Of a stretch of 51,986 nucleotides of DNA, positions 4,554 through 17,589 are shown piece after piece. Position numbers and translations under genes: made by a program. The stretch spans positions 11,157 through 63,142 of IMG/VR virus record IMGVR_UViG_3300000553_000035, one strand, 5' to 3'. This stretch comes from a virus. Below the pieces are notes generated by a model. The model saw only the letters and a list, made by a program, of their open reading frames with translations. It ran no database searches and was not told where the DNA came from. Each line of letters opens with the position of its first letter. Positions within the stretch are counted from its first letter, which is position 1.

Positions 4554-7500
4554 TCATGCTGACTTTAATAAGTCAAGACGAAATAAATTCTTAAGGCTTA
4601 GGCCATCTTTGAGCTTTTCTACTTCCACCAAGACCGGCGTACCGATTTCAAGGCTTTCTTTGATCCTTGCGTAGGTGCTTGGGAAGGCCACGATTTGAAT
4701 GCTTTCATCTTTCGGAGAGCTCTCTTCATCTTCCTCTTCAAGTAATCCATCCTCATCAAAATTATTAATAGGTAATTCTATCCATACTTGGCACATTTCT
4801 GCACCAGGACTTTTGCCCTTCTTGGTTATTAATAGCTTAACCTGGGTTACCATGCCACCAATCATAGCCTTTTCGCCTTGGAACATACGTTTTTCACCAG
4901 GAAAGTTCTGTTCTTCTTCAATCAGATTAATATAATCAGCAAGAGGATCAATGCTAACCATTGTACCCAAGAGTTCCTGCTCATGGTGACCTCTGGCATT
5001 AATGTTTTCCTCATTCTCAGCGTAACATTCAAAAGTGCTAAGGCGACCAGCACAATGGATACAAGCCTCATTGCAATTATCATCTAATTTTTTGAACTCT
5101 TTCCTTGTCTTTAGGTATTCATATAGTGCTTGCTTAGTACTACCACATAAGCTATCAAATACACCACATTTAATCATTGATATTACGGCACGCTTATTGA
5201 CTTTTCTAGTTGGTACACGTGCAAGGAAATCTTCCATGCTTTTATATGGCCCTAGCTTCTGAAGTTCTTCTGCAGCATTGGCAACATATTTAACACTGCT
5301 AAGCCCATAACGGATTACACCAGCAGATGTAAGTGTAAAGTTGCCTTCACTTTCGTTAATGTCTGGACCAAGTACTTGAATACCCAATCTACGTGCTTCT
5401 CTAGTGTAAATCACACTATCTGAAGGATTAGTGCGGAAAAGAGCAGTCATATATTCACGTGGATAATAGTATTTCATCCATGCAGTCCAGTAAGAAAGCA
5501 TACTGTAGCCGTATCCGTGACTTTTGTTAAAACCATACATACCAAATGCACGCATGTCATCAAAAATAGATTCTGCAGTTCTTTTATCAATACCACTTTC
5601 AATACATTTCTGCACAAAAGTTTCTGCTTCTTCTTTCATATCCTCATAGTTAGACTTAGCAACAGCTTTACGAACACGATCAGTTTCAACAATTGTATAA
5701 CCTGCTAATTCTACGCAAGTCTCCATAATTTGTTCCTGGTAAACAAAACTACCATAAGAAACACCAAGGATCTTTTCAAGCTTTGGGTGTTTGTAAGTAA
5801 CCTTACGTTTACCCTCACGCTTTTGCATATACATCTCAAGCAAGTTAAGACCAGTCTCTGCATCAAATGAACGTGTAATACCTGGGCGATAGATGGCAAT
5901 CATTGTGCATAAGTCTTCGATGCTACGTGGCAAGAAACGCTTTACAAGAGACCTAAGGCTACCTGTTTCAATCTGGAATAGACCAATGTTATTACCTGTG
6001 CCGACACTATCCCATACTGCAGGGTCATCGTAGTACTTTTCCCATTCATGATTCCAATCATAAAAATGTTTAAACGGGAGTACACCATCGTTATTAGTCT
6101 TGATTAATTCCAATGCAGCCATCAAAGTACTTAGAGTGCGAAGTCCAAGCAAGTCGATCTTTACAAAACCAAGCTCATCGACTTCATTCATATCAAATTG
6201 TGTACGAATATCATCATTCTGTGGACTGTAACGCAATGGCATTGCACCAAGTAGAGTCTCTTTGCTAATCAAAATACCAGCAGCGTGCGCACTGGTGTGG
6301 CGAATGTGATTAACGAACTCAGGCAAGTTATCAAATAGCTTAGAATACTTAGTTCTCCACGGTGAATACTCTTTAGCATATTGCTTCTCAACATCTTCCC
6401 ATGTAGCACCACGGTTCTTGATGTTCCAGTCATCATCGATGATATCAATCATTTTCTGAGTATCATCCTTATTAATATCAAGACCACGACAAATATCACG
6501 GAGTGCCTGTTTCGGACCCAGTGTATTTAAAGTTCCAATGCTTGCAATATTATTCCTACCGTACTTATTTTCTAGGTACTCACGAACAAGATGACGTTCA
6601 TTCTTTGGCATGTCAATATCAATATCGGGCATGCTTACACGTTCAGGATTAAGGAAACGTTCAAAAATAAGACCAGATGGCATTGGGTCTACGGTAGTAA
6701 TGCCCATAACGTAAGCAAGAAGAGAACCACCAACTGACCCGCGACTAGGACCAACGAGGAAACCATTCTTTTTACTCCAATCAATAATGTCATGCACTGT
6801 TAAGAAATAACCTGGGAAGCCACGTGTAACAATAACTTCAAGTTCATACTCCATGCGTTCACGGTACTTAGGAATTAATTCTTCGTCTACGTGACCAACA
6901 ATTTTGTTGGCAAAACCTTCTTCGATAACTTCACGAATCTTACGTTCATCCATAGCAGAAGATGAATAGAATACAGGCATCTTACGAGAACCTGGGACAC
7001 GAGCATCACACATCTGTGCTATCTCATTAGTACGGTTGATAGCTTGATCAACCAATGATTCTGGCAAGTAACTCAAACGACTTCGGGTTTCTTCTTCAGA
7101 AAAAATACATAGCTGGTTTGGACCATAAGAGAAACGGTTAGGGTCGTTGATAGTCTTACCCATTTGAATTGCAGTCATTAGTTCGTGAGCAAACCATTGC
7201 TCAGGCTCAGCATAATGAGAGTCACTAACAGCCAAGAGAGGAACACTAAAGTCCACTGCCGCTTCAGCTACACGTAGGTTCCATTCATTACTTTCAGGGT
7301 CAAGATATGTATGTAGTTCCAAGTGAAAACGATCACCAAAGATTGCTTGGTATCTACCAATGCGTTCAACAGCTTTCTCATAGTGTTCACCATCTTTAAG
7401 GTGCTTACCAATGCAACCACCCATACAACCACCAGTAACAACAAGGCCTTCGTTATATCGTTCTAGCAATTCCCAATCGAATCGTGGATTACCGTAATAA

Positions 7501-7841
7501 CTACCTTCGATATAAGCGAGACTGCTCAAAGCCCACAAGTTTTCTAGACCTTTGTTGTTAAGAGCAATGATGGTCATGTGGTCATAATTTTCACCTTTGC
7601 GACCACTTTTCTCAAAACGATCTTCAGTAAAGTATCCTTCCATACCAAAGAGAGGTTTGATGCCTGCTTTATCTGCAGCACGTTGAAGCCTAAGATGGCC
7701 ACCACATTCGCCATGATCAGTGATAGCAACGGATTCTTGTCCAAGCTCTACTACTCGATTTACTACTTGGTCAATAGTTGAAAGACCATCCAAAAAACTG
7801 TACTCACTGTGCGTGTGAAGGTGCACTAACCGATCTGTCAT
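4554..7841 (-). CDS. dnaE: DNA polymerase III alpha subunit (C-family replicative polymerase)
   Basis: 1095 residues, near the usual DnaE length, so this phage carries its own replicative polymerase. The order is: PHP domain with HLHTHSEYSFLDG (7-19) and ITDHGE; the palm with GPSRGSVGGSL (364-374) and the catalytic PDIDID (405-410); the fingers with FVNHIRHTSAHAAGI; FGFNKSHGYGYS-like text in the region 'MYGFNKSHGYGYSMLSYWTAW'; a helix-hairpin-helix stretch; and a C-terminal OB-type part (MIGGMVTQVKLLITKKG). A cysteine cluster, CNEACIHC plus a later C, lies near residue 905 and is an unusual addition. No separate proofreading exonuclease is seen in the window, so the PHP domain may matter for proofreading; that is inference. 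Confidence 0.95.
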   Translation of the reverse strand: MTDRLVHLHTHSEYSFLDGLSTIDQVVNRVVELGQESVAITDHGECGGHLRLQRAADKAGIKPLFGMEGYFTEDRFEKSGRKGENYDHMTIIALNNKGLENLWALSSLAYIEGSYYGNPRFDWELLERYNEGLVVTGGCMGGCIGKHLKDGEHYEKAVERIGRYQAIFGDRFHLELHTYLDPESNEWNLRVAEAAVDFSVPLLAVSDSHYAEPEQWFAHELMTAIQMGKTINDPNRFSYGPNQLCIFSEEETRSRLSYLPESLVDQAINRTNEIAQMCDARVPGSRKMPVFYSSSAMDERKIREVIEEGFANKIVGHVDEELIPKYRERMEYELEVIVTRGFPGYFLTVHDIIDWSKKNGFLVGPSRGSVGGSLLAYVMGITTVDPMPSGLIFERFLNPERVSMPDIDIDMPKNERHLVREYLENKYGRNNIASIGTLNTLGPKQALRDICRGLDINKDDTQKMIDIIDDDWNIKNRGATWEDVEKQYAKEYSPWRTKYSKLFDNLPEFVNHIRHTSAHAAGILISKETLLGAMPLRYSPQNDDIRTQFDMNEVDELGFVKIDLLGLRTLSTLMAALELIKTNNDGVLPFKHFYDWNHEWEKYYDDPAVWDSVGTGNNIGLFQIETGSLRSLVKRFLPRSIEDLCTMIAIYRPGITRSFDAETGLNLLEMYMQKREGKRKVTYKHPKLEKILGVSYGSFVYQEQIMETCVELAGYTIVETDRVRKAVAKSNYEDMKEEAETFVQKCIESGIDKRTAESIFDDMRAFGMYGFNKSHGYGYSMLSYWTAWMKYYYPREYMTALFRTNPSDSVIYTREARRLGIQVLGPDINESEGNFTLTSAGVIRYGLSSVKYVANAAEELQKLGPYKSMEDFLARVPTRKVNKRAVISMIKCGVFDSLCGSTKQALYEYLKTRKEFKKLDDNCNEACIHCAGRLSTFECYAENEENINARGHHEQELLGTMVSIDPLADYINLIEEEQNFPGEKRMFQGEKAMIGGMVTQVKLLITKKGKSPGAEMCQVWIELPINNFDEDGLLEEEDEESSPKDESIQIVAFPSTYARIKESLEIGTPVLVEVEKLKDGLSLKNLFRLDLLKSA

Positions 7842-8662: not shown

Positions 8663-9478
8663 TTAGTTAGCTGCTAGCTTCTTACGAAGTCGTTCAGCTG
8701 TTGTCTCTTCATCGATAGCGACATACTCATCTTCACCATACTCTTCTTCTTCCGCAACAGGTGCAGCAGCAGGAGTAGGAGTGTCAGAAGCCTTAGGTGC
8801 TTCTTTTTCCTTGATGATTCCGTGTAGTTGAGCATCGTAGTACTCTTGGCTACCAATACGGTTGAGGAATGCTTCTACATCTGGCATGAACTTAGCATAC
8901 CGAGTGTCGATGTTCTCAATTGCCTTTTCAGGAAGAGCGAATGCCATGTATGTGGTGTCAGTTCCAGCACCTTGACGCAAGATCTCAATCTCACGGTCAC
9001 GGAGTGAACCATACTTCTCAGCGATAACCGCAATCTGATTCCAGTAGTTGCGCATACCCTGTGAAACAATGCCGACATACGGCTTCTTCTTAGTTACAGT
9101 CTTACCGTCAACAGTCTCACTGTATTCAGAAGTAACATCACGGTATCCAGTAATCTTACCGTCTTCACGTACTTCTTCACGGAGCACTGCTACGCCATAA
9201 CCAACATCACGACGGTATACCTTGTTCTGACAAAGCTCACATGAAGCATCGAATGCAGAACGGCATACAAACGTCTTCTTCTTACCATCATGGGTAGGAA
9301 CATTATCGTGCACTGGAACAACAAAGATGTCATTCGAGTCAGTTAAAAATCGGAGAACTTTGCTCTCTCCACCCTGCCAGTAGAACCAGTTGGTCTGTTC
9401 ATACGTCTTAGGGCCACTACTTTTCTGCGAACGTTCAAGGCTTTCACGTACTGCAGACATACCTTTTTTCAATGCCAT
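8663..9478 (-). CDS. ssb: gp32-like single-stranded DNA-binding protein
   Basis: 271 residues resembling T4 gp32 in plan. There is a basic N-terminus (MALKKGMSAVRE) for cooperative binding, an OB-type core with aromatic residues (NWFYWQGGESKVLRF), and a zinc site His63, Cys72, Cys80, Cys83 (VCRSAFDASCELC) that parallels the gp32 ligands His64/Cys77/Cys87/Cys90. The tail is highly acidic after residue 225 (EEEEYGEDEYVAIDEE), of the kind that recruits partner proteins. It ends LRKKLAAN. It would coat single strands at the fork and organise the polymerase, helicase and RecA encoded around it. The codon choice looks optimised, which fits an abundant protein. Confidence 0.85.
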   Translation of the reverse strand: MALKKGMSAVRESLERSQKSSGPKTYEQTNWFYWQGGESKVLRFLTDSNDIFVVPVHDNVPTHDGKKKTFVCRSAFDASCELCQNKVYRRDVGYGVAVLREEVREDGKITGYRDVTSEYSETVDGKTVTKKKPYVGIVSQGMRNYWNQIAVIAEKYGSLRDREIEILRQGAGTDTTYMAFALPEKAIENIDTRYAKFMPDVEAFLNRIGSQEYYDAQLHGIIKEKEAPKASDTPTPAAAPVAEEEEYGEDEYVAIDEETTAERLRKKLAAN

Positions 9479-9565: not shown

Positions 9566-9664
9566 TTAAAAAATTCTTCTAGCCCAAGCATAAAACCAAT
9601 AAGCCAATATCATATCAAAGACATGACCGTTAAGCCAATGATGAATGCTACCTAAAAAACTCAT
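9566..9664 (-). CDS. 32-residue amphipathic peptide
   Basis: A very short gene with an excellent ribosome site, AAGGAGTAGC-ATG, overlapping the primase stop as ATGA. The peptide MSFLGSIHHWLNGHVFDMIL followed by AYWFYAWARRIF is rich in aromatic residues and may form a membrane-associated helix. The strong start signal is the main support. Function unknown. Confidence 0.5.
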   Translation of the reverse strand: MSFLGSIHHWLNGHVFDMILAYWFYAWARRIF

Positions 9665-10668
9665 GCTACTCCTTGATGTGTTAATTGCCATTCCATCGAG
9701 TTCATCGTACTAGGAATCTCCAACAATGTAGCAGGATCCTCGTCATCCGGTGTTTCGATAACTGCAATCTTAGTATACAACTTCAATTGCTCCACTAGAT
9801 TATACGTTGCATTCCTTCCAGGCAAGTCGCCATCCATAAAGATAGTTACCTTAGAGAAGTTACGCAGTAACCCAATCTGTTGAGCATCTACTTTTGCGCC
9901 GAAGGTCGCCACGACATTGTCAATCCCTCTACTCTTCAACACAAGGACGCTCATCGGGCTCTCTACAACATAGACTTTGTCAAACGCCTTGGCGTTATCT
10001 AAGTTATACAACCAAGCTCCTCGTGGGAAGCCTTTAGAGTTCCTATACTTTGGCACTCCTGGCACATCTTGGATCTTTCTAGCGACCCATCCGACCAACT
10101 TACCCTTCATAAAGTGGGGCAGTACGACCCTATCCAGGGTCACATTTACGTCCCCTTCTGGGGATTTAGAAATTTCGGTCCTTCCCCTCTCCACACCCGT
10201 GCGCATCGCCCTCTGAACGGCCTCTGAGACCCCTCTAACGGTCAAATACTCACAGGGACCTTCCCACCTTTTAAGCAGGTTATCGCTATAAACTGGGATC
10301 TCTGTACGGTCCTGGGGACTGTTGTCAAATACCCCTTCAAGACGTTTAATAAAGTCCTCAACCGATACAACCTTAAGCTCTGCTACCTCATTCTTGAGGA
10401 CAGCAATAGCCTCCTCTTTGGTGACATTCATACAGTTCTGGACTAGCCAGATTATGCTACCCCCGCCACAGGTAAAACAGTTAAAAAGGAAAGTATCTTT
10501 GTTTATGCTGGCACTTGGGTTACGATCACCGTTTTTGTGCATGCCAAAAGGCAACGGGCAAGAATGGATAAATTCATCACCATTCTCAATCAATTCTCCT
10601 ACCCCAATAATATCTTGAAGCACCACCCTAACATCAAGACCAGGGAACAAATCAGATAATGGTGTCAT
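9661..10668 (-). CDS. DnaG-like DNA primase
   Basis: 335 residues with the two hallmark parts of a DnaG-type primase. A CHC2-like zinc domain has Cys37, His44, Cys64 and Cys67 around FGMHKNGDRNPSASI and FNCFTCGGG, and a Toprim domain has VESPMS (Glu236) and FMDGDLPG (Asp279, Asp281). It is shorter than bacterial DnaG (about 600 residues) and lacks an obvious helicase-binding C-terminal domain, as in many phage primases. It would lay RNA primers for the phage fork with the DnaB-like helicase encoded just upstream. Bases in the middle of this gene look somewhat more GC-rich than its neighbours. Confidence 0.88.
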   Translation of the reverse strand: MTPLSDLFPGLDVRVVLQDIIGVGELIENGDEFIHSCPLPFGMHKNGDRNPSASINKDTFLFNCFTCGGGSIIWLVQNCMNVTKEEAIAVLKNEVAELKVVSVEDFIKRLEGVFDNSPQDRTEIPVYSDNLLKRWEGPCEYLTVRGVSEAVQRAMRTGVERGRTEISKSPEGDVNVTLDRVVLPHFMKGKLVGWVARKIQDVPGVPKYRNSKGFPRGAWLYNLDNAKAFDKVYVVESPMSVLVLKSRGIDNVVATFGAKVDAQQIGLLRNFSKVTIFMDGDLPGRNATYNLVEQLKLYTKIAVIETPDDEDPATLLEIPSTMNSMEWQLTHQGVA

Positions 10669-10789
10669 TCTTTAACTTTTCCAAAAAGTCTTTGTTTTCT
10701 TTTTTAACCTTTTCTAGAAAGGCTCGGTCTTCTGGGTTTAAATCTCTAAGGGCGTCTTGGCCCATTTCTTTAGGAGTTCTCTCAATCAT
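10652..10789 (-). CDS. Small charged helical protein
   Basis: 45 residues: MIERTPKEMGQDALRDLNPE, then DRAFLEKVKKENKDFLEKLKND, a heptad-like Leu/Lys/Glu helix able to form a coiled coil. GAGGATAACA precedes the ATG at 10789. It overlaps the helicase gene upstream and the primase gene downstream, so it may be a small adaptor between them; that is inference from position only. Confidence 0.55.
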   Translation of the reverse strand: MIERTPKEMGQDALRDLNPEDRAFLEKVKKENKDFLEKLKNDTII

Positions 10790-12062
10790 TGTTATCCTCA
10801 TATTCACGAACAACTTGAAGTGACGTACGATCTTTAAGTTCAAAACCCATCATCCATGACTTAAGGTCACTGCGACGACTCTTAAGAATATCCATCACCA
10901 ATGCCTCTTGTTGCTTCATTTCCTTGGTAGCACCAATGCCGATAGCCATGTCTACAATCTGTTCGATCTGTGAACTAAGTCCAATGTTAGCTAGCCCACC
11001 ACGACCCTTCTTATTTTTCATAGCTTCACGGTTGAACTGAGCAAGCCATACAGAGGCCATACCCATCTCTCGGTTGGTAGATGCAACATCAGTAATCACT
11101 TCAGACATTTGTAGAGTCTGGAAGTTGCTTGCTTGGCCGTAACTTTTCTCAGTGCTAATCCATGACAACTGGTCACCGACAATCATGTCTGCTCCCCAAT
11201 GCTTAGCCTTAGAGTAAAGTTCCATAACGCTTCGCTCGCTCTTACGGCTAGGAGAGTCGATGAGTAGATACTCACCAAACTCCATAACCTCTTCACGAGC
11301 TTCTTTAAGACGCTTCAACTCATTAGGTGTTAGCTGACCACGCTCATAACGAGCATACGGCACACCGCTAACAAGACAGTCAAGACGCATCAAGGTTAGT
11401 TCTTTACGAAGTTCTAACGATGCAAAATAAACCTTGTTCTTACGGCGTGCTGCTTCAAGAGCAATAACGGAACCTACCCATGACTTACCAACGTTAGGGA
11501 TACCTACGACAACCGCAAGCTCACCTTTCTGAATTCCATACATGTGATCATTCAATGCATCCCAGCCAAGATAGATGCCCTTCTTATCTTTTGTTGGGTT
11601 AGATACTTCATCCATGTAATCATTCACACGACGTTCGTAACCATCACCGTAGATTTCAATACGCTCACGTGTACTGGTATCACTCTGAATCTTTGTAAGG
11701 CTACTTAGTGCCATGGAGATACCAACCTCTGGGTCATCTTCCAAAGCATTGGCAGCTTTTAGCAAAGCACTCTGAGTAGATGCTTTACGATATTTAGTTA
11801 TCAACTCTTCAATAAGAACGCCTACTAGGTATTCTTCTTCAGGCCACTCATTACGAGCAAAATAATCTTCAAACTTAGTTTCAAGGAAATCACGATCTAC
11901 AGTTTGTTTGAACTCACTGCGAATGTAATAATCCACACTATATTCAAACAACTCACGTACACCATCATCAAAGAAGTGCTCACTACGAATTCCTTTCGCC
12001 CATATATCATCAAAACTTTCTAGCTTGACAAAATGGCGAACCATACTCTTTTCAATATCCAT
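10782..12062 (-). CDS. dnaB: DnaB-family replicative helicase
   Basis: 426 residues with a short N-terminal helical domain and a RecA-type motor. Walker A is GIPNVGKS (187-194) after the characteristic GWDALNDHMYGIQKGELAVV; then comes FASLELRKELTLMRL (H1a, with the catalytic Glu), MIVGDQLSWIS (Walker B), WLAQFNREA (H3, sensor Gln) and a C-terminal SRRSDLKSW segment. It would ring the lagging strand and unwind it ahead of the DnaE polymerase. The loader-like ATPase lies immediately upstream and the primase immediately downstream, a standard replisome order. Confidence 0.9.
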   Translation of the reverse strand: MDIEKSMVRHFVKLESFDDIWAKGIRSEHFFDDGVRELFEYSVDYYIRSEFKQTVDRDFLETKFEDYFARNEWPEEEYLVGVLIEELITKYRKASTQSALLKAANALEDDPEVGISMALSSLTKIQSDTSTRERIEIYGDGYERRVNDYMDEVSNPTKDKKGIYLGWDALNDHMYGIQKGELAVVVGIPNVGKSWVGSVIALEAARRKNKVYFASLELRKELTLMRLDCLVSGVPYARYERGQLTPNELKRLKEAREEVMEFGEYLLIDSPSRKSERSVMELYSKAKHWGADMIVGDQLSWISTEKSYGQASNFQTLQMSEVITDVASTNREMGMASVWLAQFNREAMKNKKGRGGLANIGLSSQIEQIVDMAIGIGATKEMKQQEALVMDILKSRRSDLKSWMMGFELKDRTSLQVVREYEDNND

Positions 12063-12076
12063 CTTCTTACTTTCTA

Positions 12077-12877
12077 TTAAATAATCTTACGTACTGTACC
12101 ATTCTTGATTTCATCAAGAGTTCTGTTCCTTGCATACTCACGATAGTCGACACCATCCATGTTATGTACAATCATTCTTTCTTTTAGGAGAGAAAAAATA
12201 GCACTACCGTATCCTTCATTCAATTCTTCAATTGTCATGTTCGTAGTAATAAATGTAGGGCGGTTGTCGAGCGCACGCTGACGCAATACATGGTCAAACG
12301 TTGCTTCACTTAGGTTGTTCTTTGTTCGGAACTCTTTGCCAATGTCATCCAAGAAGAATACATCGCTTTTAACTACCTTAGATTCAAAACGAGCTTTTTC
12401 TTCGTTGCTACCCCATCCTCTGGTGAACTCATCAACCATTTGTGTAAAAGTAGCAAAGTAAACAGTATAACCAAGCTTTACAAGCTCTTTGGCCATAAGG
12501 CTTGTAAGAAGTGTTTTACCTGTACCCCATGTTCCGTGGTACATCAAACCCATTCCACCTTTAACAAAGTCCTTATGTTGACTTAGATAAATCTGTGCAA
12601 GCTCTAAACCTTTGTGATCACCGTTGAAATCTTGCCAATCAAGTCGTTGATAATTGAGCCCAATGCCAGCACGTAGATAGTGTTTGTACAATTGCAATTG
12701 AACTTTGCAATCACCACAAGTTCTATCTTCGCATGTAGGACAACCGTTTTTATTGAACGTCTCAAACTGGGGATGCTTGAGTTCTAGGTACTCAATCTCT
12801 TCATCATCTAGAAAATCATATTTTAGATTGACGTAATCTTTTTGCCAATCAAACAGCGAATCGTTTAAAGAAGTCAT
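12077..12877 (-). CDS. DnaC/DnaI-like helicase loader ATPase
   Basis: 266 residues. An N-terminal zinc site CPTCEDRTCGDC (Cys46, 49, 54, 57) is followed by an AAA+ module with Walker A GTWGTGKT (115-122), Walker B VFFLDDIG (Asp177, Asp178), sensor 1 at PTFITTNM and a final Arg-rich segment. The zinc-knuckle-plus-AAA+ plan is that of DnaI/DnaC-type loaders, which place the hexameric helicase on DNA. It lies directly before the helicase gene, 14 bases away, which supports the role. Its first 29 bases overlap the end of the gene upstream. Confidence 0.82.
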   Translation of the reverse strand: MTSLNDSLFDWQKDYVNLKYDFLDDEEIEYLELKHPQFETFNKNGCPTCEDRTCGDCKVQLQLYKHYLRAGIGLNYQRLDWQDFNGDHKGLELAQIYLSQHKDFVKGGMGLMYHGTWGTGKTLLTSLMAKELVKLGYTVYFATFTQMVDEFTRGWGSNEEKARFESKVVKSDVFFLDDIGKEFRTKNNLSEATFDHVLRQRALDNRPTFITTNMTIEELNEGYGSAIFSLLKERMIVHNMDGVDYREYARNRTLDEIKNGTVRKII

Positions 12878-13316
12878 CTGTATTCATTAACCCTTCTGAA
12901 CTTGGTCGGTTCTCTTCTTTTATCTTATTTTGTTGCAACTCAATGTAGAGGGTGTCCTGAATCCATTTACTGCCCTTACTAAAAGCTGTAATGGTCATAA
13001 CCATATCATTAATCTTACCGCCATGCTTGTCAAACAACAATGCAATCATTGGACCAGCATCTTCCTTATAACGTTCTTGGAAGCTTTTAAGTATAGCAAG
13101 CTCTTTGACCCATTCAACTACATATTCAAAACCGTTAACTTCTTTATAACGATTAGAAAAATATAGCAATAGCTCTTTAGGAGTTGCAGTAGAGAGATCT
13201 AATTCTTTTACAAGATCTTCTTTACTCTCTATTAGCTTTACTTCAACAACGTCATCGTAGTCATTGTCATCATAATTTGACAATGGACCATCAAAACTTT
13301 TCTTTTCTAGTGTCAT
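12849..13316 (-). CDS. Hypothetical protein before the helicase loader
   Basis: 155 residues: an acidic, unstructured N-terminus (SNYDDNDYDDVVEVKLI) and a helical C-terminal part (ELLLYFSNRYKEVNGFEYVV ... AILKSFQERYKEDAGPMIALLFD). AGAGGAATTAAAA precedes the ATG at 13316; a 25-codon longer frame lacks such a site. The helical part and its position before the loader could suit a replication accessory or origin-related protein, but I recognise no family. Confidence 0.6.
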   Translation of the reverse strand: MTLEKKSFDGPLSNYDDNDYDDVVEVKLIESKEDLVKELDLSTATPKELLLYFSNRYKEVNGFEYVVEWVKELAILKSFQERYKEDAGPMIALLFDKHGGKINDMVMTITAFSKGSKWIQDTLYIELQQNKIKEENRPSSEGLMNTDDFFKRFAV

Positions 13317-13665
13317 TTTTAATTCCTCTAACTGATAGAAACTTATCACATACATCTGAGAACATTTGAATCTTTTTACTAATAAATTCACGCGTTACAG
13401 AATCGATGTCATGCAAACCACGACCATTTGGACCAATGGCAGAAATATTAGATTTGTTAATCAATAAAAATCGCCATTGAGTGACTATATCATCTCTATC
13501 GTTTTCTTCATGGCCATAAACCTGTACCCATTTTTCATCAAGACCACAGATATATCCTACGTATACGAATCCATCACTAAAGATTTGTACTTCTTGTTTT
13601 CTACTAGCAACGATGGCTATATTTCGCTCAAACATTACATCAGAAAGTTGTGCAAGGTTTTCCAT
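13291..13665 (-). CDS. Hypothetical protein with Sm-like beta-barrel pattern
   Basis: 124 residues. The middle reads like an LSm/Hfq fold: EVQIFSDGFVYVGYICGLDE (an Sm1-type strand-turn-strand ending in Asp) and later WRFLLINKSNISAIGP (an Sm2-type strand with the Ile-Ser pair). The C-terminal 40 residues are basic and helical. If the reading is right it may bind RNA, but sequence similarity alone is weak and a generic beta-barrel is equally possible. The start at 13665 overlaps the upstream stop (TAATG), preferred over an ATG two codons earlier. Confidence 0.5.
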   Translation of the reverse strand: MENLAQLSDVMFERNIAIVASRKQEVQIFSDGFVYVGYICGLDEKWVQVYGHEENDRDDIVTQWRFLLINKSNISAIGPNGRGLHDIDSVTREFISKKIQMFSDVCDKFLSVRGIKNDTRKEKF

Positions 13666-13940
13666 TACCATTCACCGTCCGTATTGTTTTTCCAACTACT
13701 AAAATCTACTTCAAAGCCACCCCATTTGCTAGGAGCTTCAAACAAAGAAAAACTGTTTAATTTATTTTTTTGTTCAAACACAGCATCAACAAGATGCCAA
13801 GAATAAATGAATGGTGTTGCTATGATTACTATTGGCGATAATATAAGAAAAACAATGCCAAACACAGCAGTTACAAACATTTTAATCACATTTGATTTTG
13901 ACACGATATCAACTATCTGTCTCGATCTTTTTCTATTCAT
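13665..13940 (-). CDS. Single-span membrane protein
   Basis: 91 residues: a basic N-terminus (MNRKRSRQIVD), a hydrophobic stretch at about 20-46 (KMFVTAVFGIVFLILSPIVI), then a soluble tail with several Trp. Positive-inside reasoning places the N-terminus in the cytoplasm. GAAAGGAAAGTAA precedes the start. It follows the LuxC-like gene by 29 bases and could anchor a neighbouring activity, but nothing identifies its role. Confidence 0.6.
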   Translation of the reverse strand: MNRKRSRQIVDIVSKSNVIKMFVTAVFGIVFLILSPIVIIATPFIYSWHLVDAVFEQKNKLNSFSLFEAPSKWGGFEVDFSSWKNNTDGEW

Positions 13941-13969: not shown

Positions 13970-15034
13970 TTAAAAATAATCCTCAAATGGATCATCTAAT
14001 TCTTCGTCAGCATAAATATTAAAATCATCTACACTGTCATATTGTTCAAAAAACTCTGGGAACTGCATGTTGCCTACTTCACAAATACGTATGATCATTT
14101 TATCTTCTAAAAAATCTAACGAATAAGGATCGTCATCAACATTTATAGCAATAGTACTAATATTATCAATCCAATCATCAATAAAATCATTTACTACTTC
14201 TATGTCTTCGGCAACAATCAAACGTATGTCACCATAGAGTGTATCAAACAGATCTTTAGAATTCAAGTTCTCAAGGCGAACATAACGAGCAACATAATTA
14301 GAATTAATTATTTTTTGCACCAACTCGCTCTTGCGTGTTAAAGGTAGTTTATCTCTATAACTTTCTATAAACTCACCATAGAATGTAATCATTGCTGCAC
14401 TGAACTCTTTAATCTGTTTTTTAGTTAATTTACCTAAAATAAAATAAAACTTTGGTGCTAAGCATCCTTCACCATAAAAAGAAAAGAAATCAAAACATAT
14501 TCTATTAATTATACTTGGTGTTAATTGTTCAGATCTAACTAATCCAAAACTAAATTTAAAACCATGTTCCCAAACGCGACGATCAACCGTTTCATATTCT
14601 CTAAACGTTTCCATAGCATTCTGATTGCCAAAAACAATAATATCAGTAGAATTTTCAATTTCATCTCGCCACTCGCTACTTAATTTTAATTCATCATTGT
14701 GTGCAACAAAGATTCTAGTACGAATATGTTCAGCATAATTATCTAATACATTTTGCACCAAGAAACTTTCATCTAAGCTAGGTACTTTTACAACTATGCT
14801 ATCTGGTCCTGACAACATAATGCAAAGGAATACACTTTTAGCAATAAGACCAGGCGTTTCTTTTGATCCAACAATTAGAAATTTACGACCTGTTTTTTCT
14901 TTGTATTCTTCAAAACTGTTAGGTACAAACAAGTGTTCAATTACCATTCGATAATCATTAGGTAGAAAACGACCATATTGCGATAACACATCAACCATAT
15001 CAATCGATGGATTGATAATCCATTTGCTATTCAT
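13970..15034 (-). CDS. LuxC-type acyl-CoA reductase homologue (aldehyde dehydrogenase fold)
   Basis: 354 residues that resemble the acyl-CoA reductase (LuxC) family, which reduces activated fatty acids to aldehydes with NADPH through a cysteine thioester. Seen here: KFLIVGSKETPGLIAKSVFL (51-70), leading to a Lys83 in VVKVPSLDES; TDIIVFGNQNAMETFREY (130-147); the HGFKFSFGLV segment; and FDFFSFYGEGCLAPKFYFIL (181-200), where Cys191 matches the catalytic cysteine of the family. It is shorter than bacterial LuxC (about 480 residues), mainly at the N-terminus. It overlaps the exonuclease gene as ATGA, an odd place for a lipid-type enzyme. A non-catalytic derivative cannot be excluded. Confidence 0.62.
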   Translation of the reverse strand: MNSKWIINPSIDMVDVLSQYGRFLPNDYRMVIEHLFVPNSFEEYKEKTGRKFLIVGSKETPGLIAKSVFLCIMLSGPDSIVVKVPSLDESFLVQNVLDNYAEHIRTRIFVAHNDELKLSSEWRDEIENSTDIIVFGNQNAMETFREYETVDRRVWEHGFKFSFGLVRSEQLTPSIINRICFDFFSFYGEGCLAPKFYFILGKLTKKQIKEFSAAMITFYGEFIESYRDKLPLTRKSELVQKIINSNYVARYVRLENLNSKDLFDTLYGDIRLIVAEDIEVVNDFIDDWIDNISTIAINVDDDPYSLDFLEDKMIIRICEVGNMQFPEFFEQYDSVDDFNIYADEELDDPFEDYF

Positions 15035-15975
15035 CGCAATTTCCTACCAAAAGGGATAACGTCCTTCCATAAGGTGTTATTCTTCCATCGGTCTTTTACT
15101 TGAACAAACCCAAGTTGATCAAATAGCTGTTCAAGGTTTAAAGCATTATCATCGCCGTATTTCACTGGATTGAATTGTAGATTACCCAATGGAGGGAATG
15201 CAAGCTCTTCATCAATATTTAATTCAATTAATTTTTTAGCAAGACGAACTGTATTTATATGATCAGATATTTTTGGGTCTTCTAATGCCAGTACAGAATT
15301 TAGATCACCATTTTCAGCAATAAGTTTTGTAGCTTTCTTAGGACCAATACCTGGGATTCCTTTAACGTTATCACCCTTATCGCCCATCAATGCCCAGATT
15401 TCAGGAAGGCGCCATGGGTCTACACCCCATTGTTCGTGGATGGAAACAACATCGTATATTTCTTCTTCAATATCTTTATAACTGATGCTTGGTTTAACAA
15501 CCGTAATGTTGTGTCTAATTAATTGGTGCAAATCATGATCAGCACTGACAATAATAATGCGTTCAAAAACTCCTGAATAATTCAAAGCAGCTGTAGCAAT
15601 TATGTCATCTGCTTCTACATTCTCAATACGCATATATGGCAAACCAGCATTTAAACAAAGATGCATAAACATGCTAAGTTGTGGTTTAAATTCCATTGAA
15701 AAAACATCGCCCATTGGACTCTTATTATCATGTTTGCGATTGGCTTTATATTCTGGATCGAGAGCCAATCTTTTAGAGCTACGTCCTTTATCAAAGGCTA
15801 CAAGAAGATGTGATGGCTCATACTTACGCACTAAGTTGGCAATAACATTAAATGCACCATAAGCTCCCCATGTACCTGATCCATCTGGGGCACTGAGACC
15901 TTGCCTCATCAACCCGCTAAACGAGCGAATGAAAACATTATGTCCATCAAAAATAAGTAATGTTTTCTTTTCCAT
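15031..15975 (-). CDS. 5'-3' exonuclease (FEN / PolI N-terminal type)
   Basis: 314 residues of the flap endonuclease family. It opens with LLIFDGHNVFIRSF (Asp9), then HLLVAFDKGRSSKRL and YKANRKH; ENVEADDIIATAA and IIVSADHDLHQLI carry the clustered acidic metal ligands; and the helix-hairpin-helix follows as GDKGDNVKGIPGIGPKKATK. It should remove RNA primers and flaps on the lagging strand, the job that phage T4 gives to RNase H/FEN. No polymerase A domain follows, so it is a stand-alone nuclease. The neighbouring LuxC-like gene is translationally coupled to it. Confidence 0.9.
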   Translation of the reverse strand: MEKKTLLIFDGHNVFIRSFSGLMRQGLSAPDGSGTWGAYGAFNVIANLVRKYEPSHLLVAFDKGRSSKRLALDPEYKANRKHDNKSPMGDVFSMEFKPQLSMFMHLCLNAGLPYMRIENVEADDIIATAALNYSGVFERIIIVSADHDLHQLIRHNITVVKPSISYKDIEEEIYDVVSIHEQWGVDPWRLPEIWALMGDKGDNVKGIPGIGPKKATKLIAENGDLNSVLALEDPKISDHINTVRLAKKLIELNIDEELAFPPLGNLQFNPVKYGDDNALNLEQLFDQLGFVQVKDRWKNNTLWKDVIPFGRKLR

Positions 15976-17016: not shown

Positions 17017-17589
17017 TTAAGCTTGTTTGATTTCAAGACTCTTGCTAGTAGCATACCATATATCGCCACTAACTCCTACTGCAGTTTTAGTTGCGTTTCT
17101 AGCTGCTTTAATAACATCATTTTTTGTCCATGGGCCTTCATCACCCAAAGAACCAAATGCTTCTGGTGCACCAGATCCCATAGCCCATCGACCACTAATT
17201 GGTATAGTTACTGAAAAATCATCATCAATAGCTATAATCTTATCATCAATGATAATTAAAAGACCAGCTCCAAAAGATTCAATCTTTTTACTAGTCTCCA
17301 ATGCACCATGCTCATCAAGTGCAGTTCTCATTGCTGGAATTACATCTTTAACAATAAATTGCTCAAGATTGTCACGATGAAATTCACGTAGTTCAGGCCA
17401 ATCAGTCCAATGTTGAATTACTTGAGTTGCTCTAACGCTGCCACAACCGCCAAAAATGTATTGACGTTCTTTATCAATCCAAAGCTTTCCAGATCCTTCA
17501 TGAGTTTTGTTATAATCCCAAGAGATTTCTGAATCAGCGGCAATAACCACTCCATCAACTTTGGTAATAGCAGCAGCAAGAACAGTCAT
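17017..17589 (-). CDS. Proteasome/HslV-like Ntn hydrolase
   Basis: 190 residues with the catalytic signature of a proteasome beta subunit. MTVLAAAI gives an N-terminal Thr once Met is removed; Asp19 in VIAADSE and Lys35 in GSGKLW correspond, after Met loss, to Thr1, Asp18 and Lys34, one residue off the Thr1/Asp17/Lys33 triad. FGGCGSVR and WAMGSGAPEAFGSL also fit the family, and the length is close to HslV (about 175). It would form a ring peptidase degrading unfolded or tagged proteins, perhaps with a host ATPase, since no unfoldase is seen here. It lies among replication genes rather than beside head genes, so a head maturation role is less likely. The start shares a base with the upstream stop (TAATG). 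Confidence 0.8.
   Translation of the reverse strand: MTVLAAAITKVDGVVIAADSEISWDYNKTHEGSGKLWIDKERQYIFGGCGSVRATQVIQHWTDWPELREFHRDNLEQFIVKDVIPAMRTALDEHGALETSKKIESFGAGLLIIIDDKIIAIDDDFSVTIPISGRWAMGSGAPEAFGSLGDEGPWTKNDVIKAARNATKTAVGVSGDIWYATSKSLEIKQA

Follow-up and report, generated by a model that had tools for sequence, protein, structure and literature searches.

In the lux systems a carboxylic acid is turned into an aldehyde through the combined action of LuxE, which adenylates the carboxylate and holds it in thioester linkage to a C-terminal cysteine, and LuxC, which takes the acyl group onto a cysteine of its own (the acylated residue of V. harveyi LuxC being Cys286) and reduces it with NADPH to the aldehyde. 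The Lux enzymes are known for their action on fatty acids. The three-step conversion of a carboxylate to an amine is found in the modules of the ArgB-ArgC-ArgD type, which serve amino-acid biosynthesis. An amine is also the end point of the known pathway to 7-aminomethyl-7-deazaguanine (preQ1), where, as outlined in PMC13329287 and PMC6884629, QueC acts on 7-carboxy-7-deazaguanine (CDG) in two ATP-dependent steps to give preQ0, from which preQ1 arises through reduction by QueF. According to the account in PMC6884629, dPreQ1 is a known phage DNA base, with QueF-type modification described for Streptococcus phage Dp-1 and Halovirus HVTV-1. A literature search returned no paper joining LuxC or LuxE with 7-deazaguanine among the matches listed.

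What, then, is a LuxC-family protein doing among the replication genes of a phage? The question was raised by an earlier note on a stretch of 51,986 nucleotides of viral DNA from the IMG/VR collection, the whole of which is referred to here as the window, where a LuxC-type acyl-CoA reductase homologue had been proposed to lie in a replication operon, translationally coupled to a flap exonuclease and surrounded by helicase, loader and proteasome-like genes. The relevant features, all on the minus strand, are as follows, in descending order of coordinates.

17017 to 17589, minus strand: HslV-like (proteasome-type) protein (phrog_1040, E=2.6e-13)
15031 to 15975, minus strand: 5'-3' (flap) exonuclease (PF02739, E=1.5e-33; PF01367, E=2.1e-16)
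13970 to 15034, minus strand: LuxC-family (PF05893) protein of the aldehyde dehydrogenase (ALDH) fold, 354 aa (Pfam score over cut-off; best Foldseek and VIA match 7xc6_A)
14462 to 14464, minus strand: Cys191 codon, the residue lining up with the acylation cysteine of LuxC (from sequence and the NCBIfam LuxC model, via the L009 homologue)
13665 to 13940, minus strand: small 91-aa protein, probably membrane-bound, in which visual inspection of the alignment shows a hydrophobic stretch
13291 to 13671, minus strand: phrog_2868 protein (E=7.1e-6)
12849 to 13391, minus strand: phrog_2799 protein (E=4e-16)
12077 to 12877, minus strand: DnaC-like helicase loader (phrog_50, E=1.2e-43)
10782 to 12062, minus strand: DnaB-like replicative helicase (PF03796, E=5.3e-24)
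9661 to 10668, minus strand: DNA primase with CHC2 zinc finger and Toprim (PF13662, E=1.9e-11; PF01807, E=6.5e-6)
8663 to 9478, minus strand: single-strand DNA-binding protein (SSB; BLAST cluster c13, shared with the annotated SSB of phage Cane17; no Pfam match)
4554 to 7841, minus strand: DnaE-type DNA polymerase III alpha (PF07733, E=1.7e-79)

The genomic setting is as it had been described. The stop codon of the exonuclease and the start codon of the LuxC-family gene share the tetranucleotide ATGA, and the exonuclease, DnaC-like loader, DnaB-like helicase, primase and HslV-like protein all gain their names from Pfam or PHROG matches. The HslV-like gene lies upstream of the exonuclease in the window and likewise in most of the related contigs that were read. 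When five proteins were compared with defence-system models no match was found.

The open reading frame begins with ATG, and its product scores 36 bits (E=5e-9) against the PF05893 LuxC profile, for which the curated cut-off is 21, with residues 91-333 aligned to positions 128-390 of the 401 in the profile. The same cut-off is passed by the homologues L009 (27.0 bits), L115, L122 and L106, with L102 falling just below it at 20.6. Other collections returned nothing meaningful for the window protein: the best E-value was 0.16 in PHROG and 0.086 in NCBIfam, the latter to MPN121, and tblastn against 50,697 phage records gave no match. Homology to MPN121 was rejected, since E=0.086 is at chance level, and so was remote homology to cysteine desulfurase, for which phmmer gave E=0.14.

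Structure prediction agrees as to the fold. The AlphaFold2 model, built on 17 aligned sequences, is of medium confidence (mean pLDDT 69.8, pTM 0.64), with residues 1-44 and 326-354 poorly modelled and residues 187-190, beside Cys191, below a pLDDT of 50. Its best Foldseek match in the PDB is 7xc6_A (E=9.2e-9), the LuxC chain of the Photobacterium LuxC-LuxE complex, and VIA also ranks this chain first (Z 21.0 at an rmsd of 5.8 with 335 aligned, the runner-up having Z 17.9), with the remaining Foldseek and VIA matches shown all falling in the aldehyde dehydrogenase superfamily. The model thus points to an ALDH fold closest to LuxC, and the outcome that the note had named as a refutation, a predicted structure lacking that fold, did not occur. 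A LuxC profile compared with the PDB by sequence gave a weak ALDH match (E=0.019), and 7xc6_A was not among the matches listed. The family score and the modelled fold together confirm that the product of 13970-15034 is a genuine LuxC-family homologue and not a chance match.

The segment singled out beforehand, FDFFSFYGEGCLAPKFYFIL, is present in the protein with its cysteine at residue 191, and the proposal that this is the catalytic-type cysteine is supported by an alignment made through the L009 homologue. Residues 125-215 of that protein align to positions 220-310 of the NCBIfam LuxC model with a constant offset of 95 in a weak match (E=0.02), such that Cys191 would fall on model position 286. 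The window copy therefore resembles LuxC in its ALDH fold, its family score and its catalytic-type cysteine. It differs in length, for the LuxC chain in 7xc6 has 477 residues against 354, which fits the shortfall of about 120 noted before, and it is mostly the N-terminal part that is missing. It differs too in its company, as no LuxE was found in the window phage and most of its relatives of the same arrangement lack the cysteine. Having LuxE as a partner characterises lux operons, whereas membership of the Pfam family does not require it.

Related phages do carry the gene at the same locus. Scans of IMG/VR with LuxC gave 14 loci and then 30 (the second set including the first), and a scan with a LuxE profile added two further contigs, L115 and L122, which were found again, as L123 and L124, by a DpdA-profile scan; single-sequence scans with LuxE and with the DpdA-like protein recovered only contigs already known. 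Among these records L002/L082 represents the window's own phage, in a record of 99.7 kb that is 99.99% identical to the window over the full 51,986 bases of the latter. All the viral records are contigs and possibly incomplete, although three of 131.9-132.9 kb (one solo and two cassette, in the terms given below) may be near full length. Cultured phages gave no LuxC or LuxE by tblastn in 50,697 records, and a LuxC-profile scan of genome contigs for cellular relatives produced 177 pattern matches, none of which was a relative.

Wherever the contigs reach, they share a common block of exonuclease, LuxC, phrog_2868, phrog_2799, DnaC and DnaB, with the single exception of L102, in which a UvdE-like gene (L102:8025-9008) stands directly before LuxC in the position held by the exonuclease elsewhere. 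Synteny of this block extends to Rhodococcus phages E3 and Finch and to Gordonia phage Stormageddon, and less closely to Bixzunavirus Cane17; the DnaE-type polymerase of the window likewise has its best phage matches in E3 and Finch, at about 35% identity. Within this framework two arrangements occur. In the solo arrangement LuxC stands without the additional genes described next, and this is seen in 22 contigs, the window's phage among them. In the cassette arrangement, known from 10 contigs of uncultured phages with five representative LuxC sequences (L008/L014, L009/L010, L097-L100, L115 and L122), LuxC is embedded in a set of biosynthetic genes.

The cassette runs in the order DpdA-like protein, exonuclease, LuxE, LuxC, class III aminotransferase, QueD, QueE, FolE and dCTP-deaminase-like protein, with extra genes interspersed in some lineages and the L115 contig ending within the aminotransferase. 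LuxE is recognised by Pfam (PF04443, E=1.4e-11), and the sole PDB match of its profile at E<=1 is the LuxE of the LuxC-LuxE complex (E=7e-14), where the cysteine of the phage KGCSL motif falls on chain residue 364, as counted by hand from the alignment. In all five cassettes there is an overlap of 23-32 nt between the LuxE gene and that of LuxC. The aminotransferase matches PF00202 (E=7e-68) and keeps its pyridoxal phosphate (PLP) lysine in the four cassette proteins aligned; its best NCBIfam scores are against acetylornithine transaminase models, under their cut-offs. For the deazaguanine genes there are matches to PTPS/QueD (E=5.6e-32) and FolE (PF01227, E=2.3e-69), a radical SAM domain is present, and the QueE-like protein matches phrog_2076 (E=1.2e-30). 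Against NCBIfam, the QueE models give a best E of 1.3e-29, under the curated cut-off, and QueD reaches 82.8 bits where 89.25 is required, so that both names rest on family and context.

The DpdA-like protein has no match in Pfam, PHROG or NCBIfam, and its profile gave nothing meaningful against the PDB by sequence (E 0.79). Its identity therefore rests on its modelled fold and on a tblastn match, with E=3e-6 and 36% of the query covered, to a phage protein annotated as a DNA guanine transglycosylase. The model (pLDDT 79, pTM 0.79) gives TGT matches in Foldseek, the best at E 1.5e-4, and VIA places the DpdA crystal structure 7ui4 first (Z 14.9, rmsd 3.7, 226 aligned), with TGTs tied within 1. 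Its nearest cultured relative lies in a locus with QueD, QueE, FolE and QueF, that is, a set of the preQ1 type.

How consistently do these genes travel together? Profile searches for LuxE, the aminotransferase and QueE covered 23 records (16 solo and seven cassette) among the contigs at hand. LuxE was found in 7/7 cassette and 0/16 solo records, against a weak control in which PF04443 matches two of 14 named genomes and none over cut-off, and the aminotransferase in the same proportions with a control of 14/14. QueE was detected in six of the seven cassette records (in the remaining one the contig stops short of the gene) and in none of the 16 solo records; its control, TIGR04349, gives matches in 14 genomes, none of them over a cut-off that the cassette genes also fail to reach. 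FolE and QueD were sought in solo records by tblastn with L009 queries only, in a search that took in 13 records, whole or in part, together with 17 kb from two others, and gave no match. Neither the window record nor the 99.7-kb record of the same phage yielded any cassette gene besides LuxC, in a search made at the protein level for DpdA, by tblastn for all cassette genes and also by profile for LuxE, the aminotransferase and QueE. With neither DpdA nor QueD/QueE/FolE found there, the window phage would not seem equipped for 7-deazaguanine DNA modification.

Where the cassettes depart from the known pathway is at QueC and QueF. QueC was found in none of 18 records (eight cassette and ten solo) at E<=0.01 and in none of the 10 cassette records at E<=10, with a control of 14/14, and QueF was likewise found in none of the 18 records and, at E<=10, in none of the 10 cassette records, with controls of 8 and 11 of 14. 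The cassette phages are thus similar to the QueF-type dPreQ1 phages in having FolE, QueD, QueE and, where those phages bear it, DpdA, and in an expected product of preQ1 in DNA, but differ in that QueC and QueF are not detected and LuxE-LuxC-aminotransferase stand in their place. The presence of genes for CDG synthesis and for DpdA, together with this replacement, leads to the prediction of a route to preQ1 that is independent of QueC and QueF.

In such a route FolE, QueD and QueE would take GTP to CDG, which is a carboxylic acid. LuxE and LuxC would then pass CDG through acyl-LuxE and acyl-LuxC to give the aldehyde 7-formyl-7-deazaguanine, from which the class III PLP aminotransferase would generate preQ1 for insertion into phage DNA by DpdA as an anti-restriction base modification. 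The activities, the substrate CDG and the product preQ1 are all inferred, from gene content and sequence. The chemistry would parallel that of ArgB-ArgC-ArgD, which also proceeds by activation, reduction to a semialdehyde and class III transamination, although in the cassette the activation would involve an adenylate and thioester on LuxE rather than an acyl phosphate, and the reductase is LuxC. The departure from LuxC as it is known in lux systems would lie in the substrate, which in the cassette phages is probably the acid of a nucleobase. Alternatively, the host could supply QueC, with LuxE, LuxC and the aminotransferase then acting on another acid or side chain.

A variant of this scheme keeps the three enzymes within the deazaguanine pathway but has them act on CDG already in DNA, or make an amine side chain that is joined later. 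Amidoligase_2 domains are found in L009 and L122, with BLAST homologues in L008 and L115, a methyltransferase-like gene is present in L009, L115 and L122, and in some cassettes the amidoligase-like proteins adjoin DpdA, all of which would suit such an arrangement. However, LuxE, LuxC and the aminotransferase are constant while the amidoligases vary, L097 has no amidoligase or methyltransferase genes within the 9 kb flank read and L008 has one amidoligase-like homologue; phage amidoligases are, moreover, also placed in a putative peptidoglycan-modification module in the account of PMC11945000. Action on something other than free CDG is accordingly regarded as unlikely, while deserving to be kept in mind. 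The putative amidoligases are encoded at L091:2871-5503 and L122:6296-7078 (PF12224) and, as BLAST homologues, at L115:3990-6575 and L122:2996-5571, and in three cassette lineages amidoligases and the methyltransferase-like gene lie upstream of DpdA. Possible targets of these genes are an amine-bearing base, which they would modify further, or the cell wall.

It could also be asked whether LuxE-LuxC-aminotransferase is an unrelated cassette, for a fatty amine or a glycan building block for example, that has come to lie beside queuosine genes by chance. LuxC and LuxE homologues are described in Aeromonas flagellar glycan islands in PMC7874193, which speaks for the idea. Yet the three genes keep their place between DpdA-exonuclease and QueD-QueE-FolE, inserted genes aside, in the four lineages with contigs long enough to show it, and searches of the cassette records found neither QueC nor QueF, which makes a chance neighbourhood improbable. 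The reading we favour, and consider probable though well short of secure, is that LuxC is the leftover of a phage pathway for an amine-bearing DNA base and that the solo protein has probably been repurposed. The gene would most likely derive from the three-enzyme carboxylate-to-amine module of LuxE, LuxC and the aminotransferase.

Evidence on what the solo protein has become is provided by the residues it has changed. An alignment was made of 14 solo and five cassette representatives, from which near-identical contigs were left out. Cys191 is kept in 5/5 cassette proteins but in only two of the solo representatives, those of the window and L077, and is replaced in the other 12 by Ser (4), Thr (2) or Arg (6). 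Counted by contig, all 10 cassette copies have Cys, whereas the 22 solo copies divide into five with Cys, five with Ser, four with Thr and seven with Arg, the remaining one, L103, being split and not scored. In this contig of the L077 type the gene (L103:9001-10133) is broken into two open reading frames of 154 and 214 aa, by a frameshift or an assembly error. Lys83, in a VVVK stretch that by analogy presumably contacts the cofactor, shows a similar trend, being kept in 5/5 cassette proteins and replaced in 7/14 solo proteins, including all six of the Arg type and once by Arg.

Does the loss of these residues reflect decay? The drift of catalytic residues to Ser, Thr or Arg and the split copy in L103 could be taken as signs of a remnant without function. 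Against this, dN/dS among pairs of Arg-type copies is 0.062, 0.070 and 0.137, as judged by a simple counting method on few pairs, and the position of the gene is kept. The Arg-type solo copies are under purifying selection. For comparison, the window against L077 gives 0.121 and L008 against L009 gives 0.195, with four more distant pairs saturated. Moreover, 57 columns are invariant across all 19 LuxC proteins aligned, and a further 22, including R145, V150, W155, E156 and F198, are invariant in 14/14 solo proteins and not in the cassette set; conversely, 74 are invariant in 5/5 cassette proteins and not in the 14 solo ones, which is partly explained by the smaller cassette sample. Functionless decay is thus very improbable. 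The solo-specific invariant columns, and selection in spite of the loss of the cysteine, imply a constraint other than thioester chemistry alone.

The window copy itself keeps Cys191, K83 and the HG motif, as does L077, and because of this it may still be catalytic. These are the features that would be called upon if the solo protein of the window were an active reductase on host acyl-CoA or acyl-ACP, altering host lipids or making an aldehyde. Set against this, the cysteine has been lost in 12 of the 14 solo representatives, in six of them to Arg, yet the place of the gene is kept and the Arg-type copies remain under selection, while the cassette context is one of nucleobase and not of lipid metabolism. 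Such a lipid-directed reductase is accordingly improbable. Three of the roles entertained in the earlier note, host lipid remodelling, an aldehyde signal and modification of a protein, find no support in the comparative evidence, which suggests instead that the sister phages carry out the chemistry of a 7-deazaguanine DNA base and shows the cysteine replaced in most solo representatives. Its fourth suggestion, of an ALDH-fold protein recruited to another role, fits the reading favoured here.

Recruitment of this kind would have followed the loss of the partners, leaving LuxC alone between exonuclease and helicase loader, followed by the small hydrophobic protein, where it would probably serve the replication operon through binding or as a structural component. 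To judge from these comparisons, what the window copy does today is probably non-ancestral and perhaps non-catalytic. The 91-aa protein follows LuxC in 21/22 solo contigs and in 0/10 cassette contigs, one of which, L115, ends soon after LuxC, and it is a possible partner of the solo protein. Most solo proteins also have an acidic C-terminal tail. This was considered, as a suggestive feature, for a protein-docking tip, and was set aside, as L006 and L102 are without the hydrophobic end.

The order of these events can be approached through a tree of DnaC and DnaB with 22 rows, which includes L122 without its DnaB and from which L115 was left out. On it the cassette phages group together as a single clade (support 81/98) within a backbone that is largely unresolved, and the Cys191 state requires at least five changes on the tree. 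The association between cassette and Cys191 gives a Fisher value of 0.0018 with kinship ignored, and since the cassette phages form one clade on such a backbone this tie may reflect a single event. The tree is compatible both with loss of the cassette in the solo group and with its acquisition by a single clade; the proposed direction is that the cassette would have come first and then been lost.

A further protein annotated as a metabolic enzyme is found in the same slot in cultured actinophages. The phrog_2736 "aminotransferase" occurs in Bixzunavirus, in Rhodococcus phages E3 and Finch and in Gordonia phage Stormageddon, and the Cane17 protein is matched by 194 phage records. The proteins concerned are encoded as follows.

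L016, 10226 to 11422: actinophage "aminotransferase"
L017, 10257 to 11492: actinophage "aminotransferase"
L018, 9924 to 10988: actinophage "aminotransferase"
L019, 5577 to 6620: actinophage "aminotransferase"
L130, 4998 to 6086: actinophage "aminotransferase"

Like LuxC, this gene stands before two small genes (three in Cane17) and the DnaC-like loader. The two proteins differ in architecture, the actinophage one having a PLP fold and the window protein an ALDH fold, and the possibility that they are one and the same was ruled out by the match of the former to class III aminotransferase models. In the five that were aligned, from Rhodococcus phages E3 and Finch, Gordonia phage Stormageddon and mycobacteriophages Cane17 and ScoobyDoobyDoo, the PLP lysine is missing throughout (P, G, G, G, G), while it is kept in ten other aminotransferases in the alignment. 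The actinophage protein therefore looks like a pseudo-aminotransferase kept in the replication operon. An aminotransferase tree places the cassette proteins on the same side as those of the actinophages, with a support of only 60/45. The lysine-less protein may likewise be a metabolic enzyme that has taken on an accessory part in replication.

The fullest account of the locus, which is put forward tentatively and with slightly more doubt than belief, is that uncultivated phages, actinophage-like in their gene order, use a QueC/QueF-independent LuxE-LuxC-aminotransferase route to preQ1 or 7-formyl-deazaguanine, and that once the pathway had been lost the scaffold of LuxC, without its cysteine in most of the lineages seen, was retained as a replication-operon protein, with the lysine-less actinophage aminotransferase as a possible parallel. 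If true, this would provide a second chemistry for the conversion of CDG to preQ1, going from acid to aldehyde to amine instead of from acid through amide and nitrile to amine. LuxE and LuxC would gain a nucleobase substrate, and a testable DNA modification would be predicted in uncultivated phages. The locus would also offer a natural series, at one fixed place in a replication operon, beginning with the enzyme intact and accompanied by its partners and ending with a scaffold that lacks the cysteine and is still under selection. Annotations of "LuxC" and "aminotransferase" at this phage locus would call for caution before they are read as metabolism.
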